Source: a virus
Strand: one strand, 5' to 3'
Length of the DNA stretch: 35,261 nt
Virus record (IMG/VR): IMGVR_UViG_3300030389_001439
Span: 6,425 to 41,685 of that record
Part shown: positions 1-6,714 of the stretch, piece after piece
Layout: each line of letters begins with the position of its first letter
Numbering within the stretch: the first letter of the stretch is position 1
Position numbers and translations under genes: made by a program
Notes under the pieces: model-generated
Database searches by the model: none
What the model was told of the DNA's origin: nothing
Seen by the model: the letters and a program-made list of their open reading frames with translations, nothing else

Positions 1-117
1 GCTTTCACTTAAAACTCCAGATAAAACTCGCGATTGCTTTGCATGAGACCTAGCGGCTTTTTGTAATCCTTTGACTACAGTCTTAATTCTTTTAGCACTT
101 TTTTTATTAATCGCCAT
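1..117 (-). CDS. Small basic phage protein, 3' end cut by window edge
   Basis: The first 39 codons of a leftward gene are visible, beginning M-A-I-N-K-K-S-A-K-R and very rich in Lys/Arg with almost no acidic residues. The ATG shares one base with the TAA of the upstream gene (TAATG), which supports both starts and suggests translational coupling. The reading frame is open to the edge, so the length is unknown. I do not recognise a domain. Like its neighbours it could be a nucleic-acid-binding or virion-associated basic protein, but that is inference. Confidence 0.7.
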   Translation of the reverse strand, partial: MAINKKSAKRIKTVVKGLQKAARSHAKQSRVLSGVLSES

Positions 118-362
118 TAACGAAACCTTGATGTTTTCTTTGCTACACGCTTAGGCTGTTTTACAAATTGTTTGCCTGCTTTTTTGCCCTTCCGCTTGGC
201 TCTCGTAGTTGCGGCATACTCGCTGGCCGAAAGAGCCTTGATAGCTTTCTCCGGTAGATAACGCTCCCCTGTAGCTTTCGGGCCTTGAGTAGATGGCTTG
301 CCACTCTTGGTACGCCATTTTTGCTTTGTCCAATTCTTCAGACTGCGTTGAGGAGCTTTCAC
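117..362 (-). CDS. Conserved small basic marine-phage protein (81 aa)
   Basis: The chosen start is a GTG that overlaps the TGA of the preceding gene as GTGA. The product then begins V-K-A-P-Q-R-S-L-K-N-W-T and contains the segment KPSTQGPKATGERYLPEKAI, which I recall from small proteins in environmental phages. A longer reading from an upstream ATG would add 22 residues lying entirely inside the preceding gene, so it is unlikely. The protein is strongly basic throughout (K/R about a third). The pattern Q-x-FVKQPK near the C-terminus is part of the same family signature. Function unknown; no membrane segment or known catalytic motif. It sits in a chain of overlapping genes with other basic proteins. 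Confidence 0.8.
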   Translation of the reverse strand: MKAPQRSLKNWTKQKWRTKSGKPSTQGPKATGERYLPEKAIKALSASEYAATTRAKRKGKKAGKQFVKQPKRVAKKTSRFR

Positions 363-613
363 GATTTGTATCCGCCACCTTTTTGCTTGTATTGTGCGGC
401 AAGCATCTGAGCCTTTCTTGCGCTCCATTGTCCGGGTGCGCCACCTTTTCCACCTGCTTTGATGCGGTTGAATAAGTTTTTGCGCATACCGGGCTTGGTG
501 TAATTACCGGACTCATTAACACGACTTTTCGTACCCCCTTTCGCCATATTAACAGCGTTCATCGGGCTTGTCTTAGCCGTGCCGCCCTTCATCATCTTTT
601 TAACTTTCTTCAT
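359..613 (-). CDS. Small basic Gly/Lys-rich phage protein (84 aa)
   Basis: The N-terminal part reads M-K-K-V-K-K-M-M-K-G-G and is followed at about residue 24 by a second block, M-A-K-G-G-T-K-S-R-V-N. The C-terminal half has FNRIKAGGKGGAPGQWSARK and ends K-G-G-G-Y-K-S. I recognise this C-terminal pattern from small proteins of marine phages, without a known function. The ATG shares its last base with the stop of the upstream gene (TAATG). The KMMKGG block matches the repeat unit of the lysine-rich protein at 1396-1587, which suggests a shared motif across this operon. Possible virion-associated basic protein (inference). Confidence 0.75.
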   Translation of the reverse strand: MKKVKKMMKGGTAKTSPMNAVNMAKGGTKSRVNESGNYTKPGMRKNLFNRIKAGGKGGAPGQWSARKAQMLAAQYKQKGGGYKS

Positions 614-990
614 TAGAATGCATCCGATGGTAAGAAAAATTCTTCAACAGTTACCATTAAATCTACGTGTATCGTATTACTGCCTGTTGCAGTGAATTTA
701 ATGGTGTCGCTTGGTTCTAGTATAAACTTATCATCGGGAAAAGTCAGGTGTTCTCCGGTTGCCAAAGTTTTACTAACTAATAAACTCATGTGTTGTGAAT
801 TGCTTGTGGTATCAGCGCGGGTAAATTTAAGATCAACATCGGCATTACCTGTGCTTGAGTTACTAACCCACAAAGAATTAGCGACAGTGCGACAGTTAGA
901 TGGACAAGTGTACAGTGTAACTTCCTGACCTGTTGTACCCGCTTCTTTGTTAACTGTACGAAATCTAGAATTTTTATTGGTGTTAATCAT
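613..990 (-). CDS. Small virion structural protein candidate (125 aa)
   Basis: The protein is beta-rich, with alternating Thr/Ser/Val/Ile. It contains the stretch TLYTCPSNCRTVANSLWVSN, followed by N-A-D-V-D-L-K-F-T-R, and a C-terminal T-I-H-V-D-L-M-V-T-V-E-E-F. Small beta-sandwich proteins of this look occur among phage decoration or tail-accessory proteins. No enzymatic motif is visible and there is no signal peptide. The ATG at 990 lies 3 nt after the SET gene and the stop overlaps the next start. It is the only beta-structured, non-basic small protein in the left part of this operon, so a capsid-decoration or neck/fibre-accessory role is my preferred but unproven guess. Confidence 0.7.
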   Translation of the reverse strand: MINTNKNSRFRTVNKEAGTTGQEVTLYTCPSNCRTVANSLWVSNSSTGNADVDLKFTRADTTSNSQHMSLLVSKTLATGEHLTFPDDKFILEPSDTIKFTATGSNTIHVDLMVTVEEFFLPSDAF

Positions 991-993
991 TTC

Positions 994-1395
994 TTAAATC
1001 TCATCTCTATTAACAAAGTCCGGGTAAGCCACTTCATCTTCCCTACTATCCCAATACGCCACACCATAATCGTGCGTTATTTCTTCACCTTTCTGAATAT
1101 CACGCAAAGCAAAAAAACGGACAAAGTCTACTTTCTCTTCTTCCACGATCCATTCAGCATTCGGTTTGGATGAATGGTTATATACCATAGCGTACCCAAA
1201 AGGTGACAGCAAACACTCTTCATCTTCAAATGGGGTACCAAATAAATAATCGCGGAGGATGCTAGTTTCTTCAACCTGTCCATCGTCTAAGACGACATAG
1301 GGACACATTTCAATTGTGTCACCCTCTTTGATTACAGATGTGGCAAAAACCCCATAGCCATGAAGTTTCGACTTTTGTACGGCAATATTTAGCAA
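994..1395 (-). CDS. SET-domain protein lysine methyltransferase (133 aa)
   Basis: Almost the whole protein is a compact SET domain, a family that transfers methyl groups from S-adenosylmethionine to lysine side chains of proteins. Visible motifs are G13-Y-G15-V-F near the N-terminus (SAM-binding G-x-G), Y72-N-H-S75 followed by P78-N79 (the N-H-S-x-x-P-N core) and G-E-E-I-T-H-D109-Y110-G111 (equivalent of G-E-E-L-T-x-D-Y). Pre-SET and post-SET cysteine clusters are absent, as in short bacterial and viral SET proteins. The frame opens with a TTG directly after the TAA of the lysine-rich gene upstream and in the same frame. No ATG or GTG is available before the first SET motif, so TTG is the likely start. 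Its probable substrates are the lysine-rich neighbours (inference). Confidence 0.88.
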   Translation of the reverse strand: MLNIAVQKSKLHGYGVFATSVIKEGDTIEMCPYVVLDDGQVEETSILRDYLFGTPFEDEECLLSPFGYAMVYNHSSKPNAEWIVEEEKVDFVRFFALRDIQKGEEITHDYGVAYWDSREDEVAYPDFVNRDEI

Positions 1396-1587
1396 TTACT
1401 TTTTCTTTTTTGCCATTCCACCGCGCATCATTTTTTTCTTGGCAGTCTTAGCCATTCCACCACCCATCATCTTTTTCTTGGCGGTTTTAGCCATTCCGCC
1501 ACCCTTCATTTTTTTCTTCATGGGCATACCACCGCCACGCATCATTTTTTTCTTGGCGGTTTTTGCTTTGCCGTTATGTCCGGGCAT
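1396..1587 (-). CDS. Lysine/glycine/methionine-rich repeat protein (63 aa)
   Basis: The protein consists of imperfect repeats of the unit A-K-T-A-K-K-K-M-M-(R)-G-G-G-M (three near copies), one variant P-M-K-K-K-M-K-G-G-G-M, and a terminal M-A-K-K-K-K. The start is the ATG of M-P-G-H-N-G-K, which has a good ribosome-binding site (GGAG seven bases upstream); a longer in-frame start lacks one. The composition suggests an unfolded, highly cationic peptide able to bind DNA or acidic surfaces. It directly precedes the SET methyltransferase in the same frame, separated only by TAA. Similar low-complexity K-M-M-G-G-G proteins occur in other marine phages as far as I recall; no function is established. 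Confidence 0.75.
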   Translation of the reverse strand: MPGHNGKAKTAKKKMMRGGGMPMKKKMKGGGMAKTAKKKMMGGGMAKTAKKKMMRGGMAKKKK

Positions 1588-2107
1588 TTCGTAATCTCCT
1601 TCGTTCAAGAACTAAACTTTCGTATGTATCTTTTGGAAAGTGTTTGTAGTACCCACTTTTCTCCAGACTTAATGCCGCATCATCCAGAATAGACAGACGT
1701 TGAACAAAGACCATAGCGTAATCGAGTTCTGAGTCTTCTAAACACTCTACCTCTTCTAGAAAGTGCAGACCTGCTTCTGAGGGACTGTAGTCTGGATGAA
1801 ACAACATTAGATGAAGATCAATACCAGCTACTGACAGTGCCTCATTGATACCGTCACAAAAGCCATCTAAATATTCCATTTCTGGATATTCTTCATCAGC
1901 CCAAATAACAATATCGAAATCGTGTGTATCGTATTCTTTTACTTGTTCTATCAGGCCATTAAGACCCGTATTCACAGAAAACGTAACTTTGTTTTCTAGC
2001 CATGCCCTCTTTGCATATGGGCAGGGTGGTAATCCATTTAATTTATCGCACGGAACTTCTAAAAATTCACGAGACCACTTTCGTATCTCATCTTCAATGT
2101 CAGACAT
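1574..2107 (-). CDS. Conserved hypothetical acidic protein (177 aa)
   Basis: The product starts M-S-D-I-E-D-E-I-R-K-W, overlapping the upstream gene by 8 nt. It has a conserved-looking segment L-N-G-L-P-P-C-P-Y-A-K-R-A-W near residue 25, where the CPYAK motif stands out, and a central region rich in Asp/Glu and aromatic residues (V-I-W-A-D-E-E-Y, L-H-L-M-L-F-H-P-D-Y). Similar N-terminal L-P-P-C-P-Y-A patterns occur in small phage and bacterial proteins of unknown function. There is no membrane segment. It is acidic, in contrast to the basic proteins around it. I cannot name a family with certainty. Confidence 0.75.
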   Translation of the reverse strand: MSDIEDEIRKWSREFLEVPCDKLNGLPPCPYAKRAWLENKVTFSVNTGLNGLIEQVKEYDTHDFDIVIWADEEYPEMEYLDGFCDGINEALSVAGIDLHLMLFHPDYSPSEAGLHFLEEVECLEDSELDYAMVFVQRLSILDDAALSLEKSGYYKHFPKDTYESLVLERRRLRNART

Positions 2108-2432
2108 CAAAGCCCATTTTGCGAACAGCTTTTCTTCCTTTTGGGGATTTAGCTAGTGCTTTCAGTCCGGGATTTGGTAGGTTATCTACTACAACACCGC
2201 CGCCCACGTACCTGTGTGGAGTTCTTTTACCGCCAGCCATGCCGCCATCTTTCAGTTTAGAATTATCTTCATCGATGTTAACGCCGTACCGCTTGAGCAC
2301 ACTGTTGACTTGTTTTAAATTCATCTGAGCGGCCTTGTCTGTTGGGTCAGAACGAAGTTCAGCTTCATACTTAGCTTTTTCATCTTGAAGATCTTTAATC
2401 ATCTTCGCACGTTCTGGATTTACTTTTTCCAT
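2100..2432 (-). CDS. Hypothetical protein with N-terminal coiled coil (110 aa)
   Basis: Residues 1-50 are strongly helical with charged heptad-like spacing (P-E-R-A-K-M-I-K-D-L-Q-D-E-K-A-K-Y-E-A-E). The C-terminal half is glycine-rich, with K-L-K-D-G-G-M-A-G-G-K and Y-V-G-G-G-V-V-V-D, and ends in a basic K-G-R-K-A-V-R-K-M-G-F-D-V. The K-D-G-G-M pattern again resembles the K-x-GG-M motif seen in nearby proteins. The ATG lies 3 nt after the stop of the upstream gene. No known domain recognised; a virion-associated role is possible given the company. Confidence 0.7.
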   Translation of the reverse strand: MEKVNPERAKMIKDLQDEKAKYEAELRSDPTDKAAQMNLKQVNSVLKRYGVNIDEDNSKLKDGGMAGGKRTPHRYVGGGVVVDNLPNPGLKALAKSPKGRKAVRKMGFDV

Positions 2433-2435
2433 TGT

Positions 2436-2702
2436 TTAACTCCGTGGATTCTTTTTACGTGCAGTCTTAGTACGAGCGTAAGACCTGTTTGCTGATGCTG
2501 ACTTAACCGCCAGCTTCTTGTTGTTCAATGCGTTACCACCTACGTGATGAACATCTTTACCATCACCTTTACGTACTAATCCAGCTTTAGCCATCTTCCT
2601 ACGTGCGGCATTGCGAGAGGCTCTTTTCTTACGTACAGCAGGCTGACCGTCGTATTTAGCTTCCTGCTTGTAATTACGTTTGTATCCGGGTGAAGAAGGC
2701 AT
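2436..2702 (-). CDS. Small basic HNH-like phage protein (88 aa)
   Basis: The protein begins M-P-S-S-P-G-Y-K-R-N-Y-K-Q-E and has a dense Arg/Lys helix (V-R-K-K-R-A-S-R-N-A-A-R-R-K-M-A-K-A-G). The segment K-D-V-H-H-V-G-G-N-A-L-N-N-K-K-L resembles the D-x-H-H-x-x-G-x-x-x-N-N-x-x-x-N-L core of HNH nucleases. A complete HNH finger with a second zinc or catalytic histidine is not evident, since the helix ends A-N-R-S-Y-A-R-T-K. It may therefore be a degenerate HNH or a DNA-binding protein derived from one. The start codon overlaps the upstream stop (TAATG). Related short proteins appear in marine podoviruses by my recollection. Confidence 0.7.
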   Translation of the reverse strand: MPSSPGYKRNYKQEAKYDGQPAVRKKRASRNAARRKMAKAGLVRKGDGKDVHHVGGNALNNKKLAVKSASANRSYARTKTARKKNPRS

Positions 2703-3196
2703 TACTTACGTGACATCCTGTTAGGAGGTACTGATGCGCCCGCATTAGCTTTTATTACGCCACCTTTGTTAAGTTTTGTTTCACTCATTACCTTGCCACG
2801 ATGTTCAGCAAACTGCTTTCTTTTTTTATCATCTTTTTTACTTTTAGCTTTTGCTTCTCCTACTTTTATGGCTTTATCGTAAGCTTTTTCTCCTACGACA
2901 TAACCGGCAATTGGCGAAGCGGCGAAAAGAGTTCCTTTGACACCTTTTTTAATACCCTCTGCGGCAACTTTTTTGGGGCCGGTTTGAGTAGGTAACATCT
3001 CTTTGTAAAACTCTTTAATGGGCTTGCCTGTTTTTTCACTTAATTTTGCGGCTTTTGCGCCTTTCGTTGCGGCATCTTGTAAAACATCATCCGAAAAATC
3101 TTTATATTTTTTAGCTAATTCTTTTACTACTTTACTTTTAGATAACCCCTGTAGTGCAAGTCTGCCTGCGGCCATCAATATTGCTGGAATTGCCAT
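2702..3196 (-). CDS. Basic Lys/Ala-rich phage protein with Gly hydrophobic segment (164 aa)
   Basis: The N-terminus (M-A-I-P-A-I-L-M-A-A-G-R-L-A-L-Q) is short, apolar and amphipathic rather than a full signal peptide. A lysine-rich helical middle follows, then a weakly hydrophobic stretch around residues 87-103 (G-T-L-F-A-A-S-P-I-A-G-Y-V-V-G-E). The tail is strongly basic and carries L-N-K-G-G-V-I-K-A-N-A-G-A-S. The latter matches the K-G-G motif of neighbouring proteins. No domain is recognised. It could be an internal virion protein or a DNA-binding protein; neither is shown by sequence alone. Confidence 0.72.
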   Translation of the reverse strand: MAIPAILMAAGRLALQGLSKSKVVKELAKKYKDFSDDVLQDAATKGAKAAKLSEKTGKPIKEFYKEMLPTQTGPKKVAAEGIKKGVKGTLFAASPIAGYVVGEKAYDKAIKVGEAKAKSKKDDKKRKQFAEHRGKVMSETKLNKGGVIKANAGASVPPNRMSRK

Positions 3197-3204
3197 AAAT
3201 TACC

Positions 3205-3489
3205 TTACCATTTCTTACATGACCAGTATCTGGCCGAAAACTTATCTGTTGCTGTATCACATTTGTGACGAGCACGAAACGACTTACGTCTTTCAGGGTT
3301 ATCCTTCTTGATCTCCATATTCGGATCACCGTAACGGACTATCTTAACCTGATCACCTTTCTTGGCAAGCACGGCAAACTTCTTATTTGCACCGGGAGTA
3401 CGCTTAGGTTTGTTATATCCACTGAAAGTTTCACCACGATAGGTAAGTCTACCGCTTTCAGTGCGCTTAACATCTTTAGTTGTCGCCAC
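3205..3489 (-). CDS. DUF5872-like basic protein with C-terminal YWSCKKW (94 aa)
   Basis: The C-terminal half has the pattern R-R-K-S-F-R-A-R-H-K-C-D followed by K-F-S-A-R-Y-W-S-C-K-K-W. This matches my recollection of the DUF5872 family, small proteins of marine bacteria and phages with unknown function. Two cysteines flank an R/K-rich helix and could form a disulphide or metal site. The middle contains F-A-V-L-A-K-K-G-D-Q-V-K-I-V-R-Y-G-D-P, a predicted beta hairpin. Start ATG at 3489 overlaps the upstream gene by 14 nt. The family assignment is tentative. Confidence 0.72.
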   Translation of the reverse strand: MATTKDVKRTESGRLTYRGETFSGYNKPKRTPGANKKFAVLAKKGDQVKIVRYGDPNMEIKKDNPERRKSFRARHKCDTATDKFSARYWSCKKW

Positions 3490-4653: not shown

Positions 4654-4664
4654 CCCGTATTAGC

Positions 4665-4766
4665 TGTACAATTTTTGATCATCCCATTTTGACTGTACAA
4701 ATTTTGATCACTCCATTTAATTGTACAAATTTTGACCACTACGGTCCGATGTACAAATTTTGTACA
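4665..4766 (+). repeat. Iteron-like array of TGTACAAATTTTGA repeats
   Basis: Copies begin at 4665, 4694, 4722 and 4750, that is at 29, 28 and 28 bp spacing. Each reads TGTACAA(A/T)TTTTG followed by ATCA, ACCA or, in the last, TACA. The fourth copy is a complete palindrome, TGTACAAATTTTGTACA (4750-4766). The regular spacing of close to three helical turns puts every site on nearly the same DNA face. This is usual for initiator or repressor arrays and unlike CRISPR, because the spacers are also partly similar and the repeats are short. Confidence 0.65.
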
Positions 4767-5931: not shown

Positions 5932-6714
5932 ATGAAAACTTTAACGGGTAAAAAATTGCGTAATTCTAAGACACTGCGCGGCCCTAAGCCTCGCGGCTTC
6001 GTTATGCACGAAGGCCCATCCGTTCTGGATGGATCACCGATTGTTGTTATTGCGACACTCGAAACGTCGAACGTAAAGACTGGCGCGATGGTTCAAGTGT
6101 GGATCTTGCGCTCTGATATTAATCCCGTGCAGGCAACCAAAACGGGTGCTGATTCCGCTATCTGCGGATCATGCCCACATCGCCATTTCAACGGCGGCGC
6201 GTGTTATGTCAACGTAGGCCAAGCACCTAATGCGGTTTATAAGGCTTTTATTACCGGGAAATATCCTCGCTATGTTCCGCAGGAGCACGAGCATTTCTTG
6301 CGTGACCGCCGTGTTCGTTTGGGTGCATATGGTGATCCCGCCGCCGCGCCTTTTTACGTGATGGAATACCTCGCGAATGTTGGCACTGGTCACACTGGAT
6401 ACACGCACCAAGCCCGGCACCCTAACTTTGATTCGCGGTTTATCGGTATCTGTATGGTATCCGCTGATTCACCGAAGCAGGCGCAACAATGGCACGAGCG
6501 CGGTGCTCGCACCTTCCGGGTAGCGATGGAGGGTGACGCAATGTTTGACAATGAGATCGAGTGTCTGGCTGATTCGCATGGCAAGCAATGCATTGAGTGC
6601 GGTCTGTGTGATGGTGCGAAGCGTACCGATGAGAGTATCGTGATCACGGTTCACGGTTCGCGGGCTTCAAGCTTCAAGACCGCAACGATTATTCCTACTA
6701 TGGAGGTAGCATAA
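5932..6714 (+). CDS. Conserved phage Cys-rich protein (DUF7227-like, 260 aa)
   Basis: This is a widely distributed phage protein family that I recognise from its motifs but whose function I do not know. Around residue 80 there is I-C-G-S-C-P-H-R-H-F followed by G-G-A-C-Y-V-N-V-G-Q-A-P. The middle contains R-L-G-A-Y-G-D-P-A-A-A-P and G-H-T-G-Y-T-H-Q. A second cluster lies near the C-terminus (C-I-E-C-G-L-C-D-G-A). The two cysteine clusters could bind zinc or an iron-sulphur cluster. The middle G-A-Y-G-D-P segment resembles a nucleotide or substrate loop, but this is not established. The start has a good GAGGAAAT site. Leader of the second early gene block; DUF number from memory and tentative. 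Confidence 0.82.
   Translation: MKTLTGKKLRNSKTLRGPKPRGFVMHEGPSVLDGSPIVVIATLETSNVKTGAMVQVWILRSDINPVQATKTGADSAICGSCPHRHFNGGACYVNVGQAPNAVYKAFITGKYPRYVPQEHEHFLRDRRVRLGAYGDPAAAPFYVMEYLANVGTGHTGYTHQARHPNFDSRFIGICMVSADSPKQAQQWHERGARTFRVAMEGDAMFDNEIECLADSHGKQCIECGLCDGAKRTDESIVITVHGSRASSFKTATIIPTMEVA

Follow-up and report, generated by a model that had tools for sequence, protein, structure and literature searches.

The new element of this analysis is a vSET-like enzyme of tailed phages that is accompanied by a conserved lysine-repeat gene and has a sister gene in the host group. The enzyme's gene lies in a stretch of viral DNA of 35,261 nucleotides (the window), which corresponds to positions 6425-41685 of the 41,685-bp IMG/VR record IMGVR_UViG_3300030389_001439. 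Our most far-reaching explanation, which we put forward tentatively, is that tailed phages of the HMO-2011 group carry a two-gene cassette made up of a SAR116-derived methyltransferase and a multi-site lysine-repeat protein adapted as its substrate, and that the cassette would tune a cationic late or virion protein. If this is true, the cassette would be a phage counterpart of histone-tail methylation, and phages would have, in a SET enzyme and its conserved lysine-repeat partner, a route to the post-translational tuning of their proteins. A survey describes HMO-2011-type phages as dominant in the ocean and widely spread there (PMC9038755); its text mentions neither SET nor methyltransferase.

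Phage type and the late operon

The window belongs to an HMO-2011-type marine podovirus, judging from its DNA similarity and a gene order like that of Puniceispirillum phage HMO-2011 and the Roseobacter CRP phages. The portal, terminase and basic genes follow an order common to this phage and the HMO-2011/CRP genomes, and the gp66 and repeat region of HMO-2011 is 69.7% identical to the window at the DNA level over 650 nt. In the direction of transcription, the leftward late operon runs from basic genes to gp66, the lysine-repeat gene, the SET gene, the gene for a 125-aa protein and further basic genes, and it continues with the terminase and portal outside the window. The features at the locus are as follows.

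117-428, minus strand: basic 103-aa protein, phrog_14910, pI 11.6; possible other substrate
359-613, minus strand: basic 84-aa protein, phrog_17747, with a KKMMKGG head and an NESGNYTKP core, pI 11.1
613-990, minus strand: 125-aa protein, phrog_1276, the next gene after SET
994-1395, minus strand: predicted SET-domain protein lysine methyltransferase, 133 aa, vSET-like by profile, fold and motifs
1396-1587, minus strand: 63-aa protein of lysine/methionine/glycine repeats; relatives carry a homologous ORF behind gp66
1412-1560, minus strand: 39-nt tandem repeat in 3.9 copies, coding for the repeat units (Tandem Repeats Finder score 179)
1574-2110, minus strand: gp66 homologue, acidic, 178 aa (phrog_28122, E=2e-69)
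2100-2432, minus strand: mildly basic 110-aa protein, pI 9.8
2436-2702, minus strand: basic 88-aa HNH-like protein, phrog_4590, pI 11.5
2702-3196, minus strand: basic 164-aa protein, pI 10.1
3205-3489, minus strand: basic 94-aa protein, phrog_7595, with a weak DUF5754 match, pI 10.3

All late-operon genes at the SET locus are on the minus strand, and their starts and stops overlap or abut. The initial annotation had placed the SET gene directly behind a 63-residue lysine-repeat gene, and this is what we find, since 994-1395(-) abuts 1396-1587(-); the five other very basic proteins that it had counted within 3.2 kb are also there, with calculated pI values of 10.1-11.6. Its further claim, that the SET and repeat genes share one leftward transcript, agrees with the strand and with the overlapping or abutting spacing, and it is because of this spacing that we infer a common transcript, but scans for promoter and terminator consensus sequences gave matches no higher than the background of shuffled sequences. 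The family of the 359-613(-) protein (NKAGNYTKP) occurs with or without SET and served as our control gene. In sister phages lacking SET, the gene for the 125-aa protein is found after the repeat gene or after an ORF of ~48 aa.

Two observations concern the window more generally. Repeats of 28-29 nt with the core TGTACAAATTTTGATCA are present at 4660-4762, in a long non-coding stretch between the leftward and rightward operons, and may serve as regulatory or origin sites. Just upstream of the window start, at ~6421-6424 of the source record and within a basic ORF, a short stretch of N marks an assembly gap.

The SET enzyme

The SET ORF encodes an acidic protein of 133 aa (pI 4.3, net charge -17) from a TTG start that abuts the TAA stop of the repeat ORF. 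It matches Pfam PF00856 with E=4.9e-17 and 62.7 bits (cutoff 22.4), and a profile search of the PDB gave PBCV-1 vSET (1n3j) as the top match with E=6e-22. The AlphaFold model has a pLDDT of 76 and a pTM of 0.69, and the top Foldseek matches to it were all SET domains with E values down to 3e-10, Plasmodium PFL0690c being the first and vSET (3kma) the second (E=4e-10). The domain stands alone, with no pre-SET or post-SET zinc modules and with the C-terminal YGxxYWxSR present. An alignment of 16 diverse phage SETs contains 33 invariant columns, including YG..YW.SR, and the motifs HGxG, NHSxxPNAEW and HxYGxxYWxSR are invariant throughout; HGxG, NHS, PN and Y110, which are the conserved SAM-binding and catalytic motifs, are present in the window's SET and in its phage relatives alike. 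Values of dN/dS, in the pairs where they were computable, range from 0.06 to 0.20, which indicates purifying selection and therefore a working gene. On the combined strength of profile, motifs and modeled fold, the gene at 994-1395 is read as an intact minimal SET methyltransferase of the vSET type, and its product is very probably an active methyltransferase, a catalytic role that we infer.

The lysine-repeat protein and gp66

Read from its ATG, the repeat ORF encodes 63 aa, MPGHNGKAKTAKKKMMRGGGMPMKKKMKGGGMAKTAKKKMMGGGMAKTAKKKMMRGGMAKKKK, with a pI of 12.0, 33% lysine and a net charge of +23; an in-frame TTG at 1608 is an alternative start that gives 70 aa. The units of the protein follow the form AK[MT]AKKKMM[RG]GGGM, and the underlying DNA is a true tandem array with a 39-nt period. 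The gp66 homologue encoded just before it has an AlphaFold pLDDT of 89 and weak similarity to DUF6875/DUF1415; with the similarity this weak and no Foldseek match of the model to the PDB at E<=0.001, gp66 was rejected as a known enzyme.

Of the 139 distinct gp66 genes examined, 123 are followed by a repeat ORF. These 139 loci divide into 50 with repeat and SET, 73 with the repeat alone, 16 with neither and 0 with SET but no repeat, so that the repeat is not dedicated to the enzyme: 73/123 repeat loci have no SET behind them. Genome-wide absence of SET in the presence of the repeat was found in 17 records of 33-59 kb, including HMO-2011 and CRP-345, two phages that share the gp66-repeat pair and the genome type of the window's phage but have no SET anywhere. 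Because the repeat gene occurs without SET in these two phages and in many IMG/VR phages, it is independent of the enzyme, and the idea that it is a SET-specific invention was rejected, the gene being older, tied to gp66 and also present in SET-free phages. Gene content and distribution point to the repeat gene as the older and more widely spread partner of gp66 and to SET as an add-on.

In HMO-2011 (NC_021864.1, ~50628-50780; L014:4490-4642, minus strand) the repeat ORF is an unannotated gene of 50 aa between gp65 and gp66. Some repeat ORFs (L047, L050, L052, L089 and L611:948-1505) contain an extra non-repeat domain, either C-terminal (GADVKAALDTSSKSAFIASALKRNPSL...) or N-terminal. KKMMxGGM repeat proteins are also widespread in viral contigs beyond the gp66 context, where a pattern scan found at least 120 stretches (L090-L208).

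Conservation of the pairing

We searched IMG/VR for the pairing with SET profiles alone, and the count is therefore not biased towards repeats. Among the best 80 of up to 411 matches per scan, a KKMM-GG repeat gene lies directly upstream in 90 of the 96 distinct SETs with enough upstream DNA, and the commonest junction between repeat and SET is an overlap of 1 nt. The remaining six belong to one early-module clade, in which a SAR116-like SET is located in the replication module. A further count of testable SET loci gave the pairing in 75/75, while none of 79 cellular SET loci has the repeat or an adjacent ORF of K>=20%. The initial annotation had named loss of the pairing in close relatives as the observation that would speak against it, and no such loss was seen. 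The pairing that it proposed is nevertheless one-way: it is conserved from the side of SET, with the repeat type covarying, and is not conserved from the side of the repeat. The gp66 tree requires a minimum of 3 changes in the presence of SET and allows as many as 9, and comparison of sister phages with and without SET shows it inserted precisely at the junction of the repeat gene and the gene that follows.

Repeat types in phages with and without SET

Repeats next to SET have an unbroken lysine run (AKKKMM, KKKMMGGG), whereas in repeats without SET the first lysine is often replaced (A[SAQTP]KKMM). With motif traits that were picked after inspection of the sequences, A[SAQTP]KKM units occur in 1/50 SET+ vs 44/71 SET- repeats, and KMMGG in 34/50 SET+ vs 1/71 SET- repeats. 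Only 3 starred pairs were available for an independent-pairs sign test, which is too few for significance, and for this reason we used a likelihood test and a partial Mantel test. The likelihood test of correlated evolution on the gp66 tree gave p=2e-4 and 2.5e-7. After the removal of gp66 distance, repeat distance still followed SET state (partial Mantel r=0.34, p=0.001), and the same test with the control gene 359-613, two places on from SET, gave r=0.004. The association between repeat type and SET holds once phylogeny is allowed for, with the caveat that genes that touch may recombine together.

SET away from the repeat

A search that started from the SAR116 SET identified six HMO-2011-like contigs (L553-L557 and L577; records G062-G067) with a SAR116-like SET beside a helicase gene in the replication module, where it adjoins helicase and polymerase genes; the enzyme thus has a second location within this phage group. 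On the tree, these early-module SETs group with the SAR116 SETs (98/92), separately from the phage SETs linked to a repeat. Two of the six records extend to gp66, and each contains exactly one SET, which in G063 is ~14 kb from gp66 and on the opposite strand; behind the repeat both phages have a small ORF, as in SET-free phages, and no SET. The repeats of both nonetheless belong to the SET type: they contain KMMGG or RMMGG, lack A[SAQTP]KKM and resemble SET+ repeats more than SET- ones (mean 4-mer cosine 0.64 vs 0.43, and 0.51 vs 0.37), although the comparison comprises two phages only, which are related to one another and whose gp66 is placed near SET+ lineages with weak support. A repeat of the SET type in a phage whose SET is distant would not be produced by linkage alone. 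These cases favor functional coupling over linkage, and they show that adjacency of SET and repeat is apparently dispensable.

Relatives of SET in SAR116

Among cellular SETs, the nearest are encoded on the chromosomes of SAR116, which is the host group of HMO-2011, and of related Alphaproteobacteria MAGs, at 45-55% identity. A clade with 100/99 support unites the phage SETs with those of SAR116 and excludes other cellular SETs, and a SET of this clade is present, exactly one each, in 51/61 genomes of the SAR116 family. The occurrence of the phage SETs in one clade with a gene so common in this family makes an exchange of genes between host and phage likely, and the tree most likely reflects capture, with the direction from host to phage. 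The best tree divides the repeat-linked SETs into two clades, and a single clade is not rejected (AU p=0.42; 0.28 with the early SETs added); two independent captures of the repeat-linked SET are thus not required.

Like the phage enzyme, to which it is about 45-62% identical, the chromosomal SET of SAR116 (L287-L292, L298, L453-L472) is acidic and has the same motifs. Unlike it, the SAR116 gene has no lysine-repeat gene next to it, and nucleoside-recognition (Gate) and OlsF genes are nearby where the surroundings could be read; in one MAG (L298:3915-7297) it is located between a Gate-domain membrane protein and the ornithine lipid synthase OlsF. DNA for the KKMMxGG motif was found in 1/61 SAR116-family genomes. 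The sister SET is present in most of these genomes and the motif in only one, which means that the ancestral substrate was something else, and the proposal that the repeat motif was the ancestral host substrate is unsupported.

Possible targets of the enzyme

Our preferred reading is that SET methylates the lysine-repeat protein, a substrate role that we consider plausible if not quite probable. It would begin with a vSET-type enzyme in HMO-2011-type phages, common to their SAR116 hosts and most likely captured from them. Ribosomes finishing the lysine-repeat gene could start on SET, and with SET so placed the enzyme and the repeat protein would be made together in the late operon. The acidic SET would bind the strongly basic repeat protein and methylate lysines of the repeated AK[MT]AKKKMM[RG]GG units. 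Methylation of lysine would keep the positive charge while altering bulk and hydrogen bonding, and could in this way tune the partner binding of a repeat protein that is probably associated with DNA or the virion. The arguments for this reading are the intact motifs and fold, purifying selection, the conserved order and the covariation of repeat type, including in the unlinked phages, and precedent is provided by cpnSET acting on Hc1 and Go1-SET on MC1-alpha. Against it are the retention of the repeat in SET-free phages, the SAR116 sister SET without the motif, the independent capture of a SET away from the repeat, and the possibility that gene order stays fixed by descent within a single phage lineage with no function behind it. 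Taken together, the genomic patterns suggest that the phage chemically modifies its own lysine-rich protein.

The main rival, which we find doubtful but take seriously, is a host target: the enzyme would be a host-derived auxiliary SET that methylates the cellular protein of the SAR116 chromosomal SET, in a slot behind the repeat that was tolerated and then inherited. Much of the evidence from SAR116 agrees with it, namely the wide distribution of a SET joined to the phage SETs with high support, the lack of a repeat neighbor there and the near absence of the KKMMxGG motif, and the SAR116-like SET that some phages carry next to their helicase and polymerase genes fits early action on the host; a viral parallel is PBCV-1 vSET, a packaged enzyme whose target is the host's histone H3 (PMC7019647). 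What a host target would not predict, however, is a repeat type that tracks SET, even in phages with the two genes wide apart, or a SET gene that almost always comes right after the repeat, also where other inserts share the slot. The repeat protein and a host protein could also both be targets at once.

It is improbable, in our judgment, that the repeat protein is a binding partner rather than a substrate, whether it serves SET as an adaptor or inhibits or activates it; as a polycation it might, for instance, hold on to the acidic enzyme or direct it to DNA or the virion. The opposite charges are conserved (mean net -19 for phage SETs and about +22 for repeats), translational coupling would lead to co-production, and repeat type follows SET, all of which such a partner would explain; yet the repeats are rich in the very residue that SET modifies, which makes a pure scaffold less economical, and the repeat persists without SET. 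We regard as distinctly improbable that SET acts mainly on the other basic late-operon proteins of the phage (117-428, 359-613, 2436-2702, 2702-3196 and 3205-3489), given that the control gene 359-613 does not vary with SET and that SET is not fixed beside any of them, even though six basic proteins are encoded within about 3 kb and SETs of unrelated viruses (L007/L008, GR11A) also adjoin non-homologous basic genes. Chance adjacency, with SET and repeat traveling together by descent and recombination just because they touch, is very improbable, since the SET-type repeat was kept in two phages whose SET belongs to the replication module, although nearly all cases come from one phage group, one recombination tract would carry both genes and the starred branches of the gp66 tree force just 3 changes.

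Nature offers ready controls in the form of phages with SET adjacent to the repeat, far from it or missing. A phage SET with a conserved repeat partner would bring two questions within reach of testing, namely the role of the SET widespread in SAR116 and the purpose of KKMM-GG repeat proteins, of which marine phages have many.

Comparison with known SET systems

PBCV-1 vSET (A612L; 1n3j, 3kma) is, like the phage enzyme, a minimal virus-encoded SET of ~120 aa with the NHS..PNA and YGxxYWxSR signatures. We know of no repeat partner of vSET, and bacterial hosts have no histone H3. The target of vSET is K27 of host histone H3 (PMC7019647), and it cannot apply to the window's phage because its host is bacterial. 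Two prokaryotic SETs are reported to methylate basic proteins that bind the DNA of the same cell: for chlamydial cpnSET (NUE) the target is the histone-like Hc1 (PMC10117894), and for archaeal Go1-SET it is the DNA-binding MC1-alpha (PMC6776556). Unlike the phage SET, these are cellular genes whose target genes are not described as adjacent.

The initial annotation had noted that SET genes in phages are known, and others do carry them, Stenotrophomonas phage Moby among those annotated so; a search on phage SETs and phage lysine methylation found no paper on a phage SET in the literature collection covered. Small SET domains are likewise encoded by Synechococcus phage SynMITS9220M01 and Vibrio phage GR11A. 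These three are large phages whose SETs are 32-36% identical to the phage SET described here and have no KKMM-GG neighbor, and a basic neighbor gene is found in GR11A only.

In GR11A (MT366761; L473:22295-25441) the SET gene is directly behind a protein of 36% K+R, and a K/M-rich protein (MMKKKKSKAG...KMMKKKMKKM) is encoded ~2 kb beyond it; the two are among the three most basic proteins of the 59 genes examined. Two further viral contigs encode a distant SET of 35% identity and, after it, a run of basic genes for a 75-aa protein (32% K+R), an HNH_3 protein and a KP-rich repeat protein of 366-377 aa (L007:2282-4284 and L008:1140-3175).
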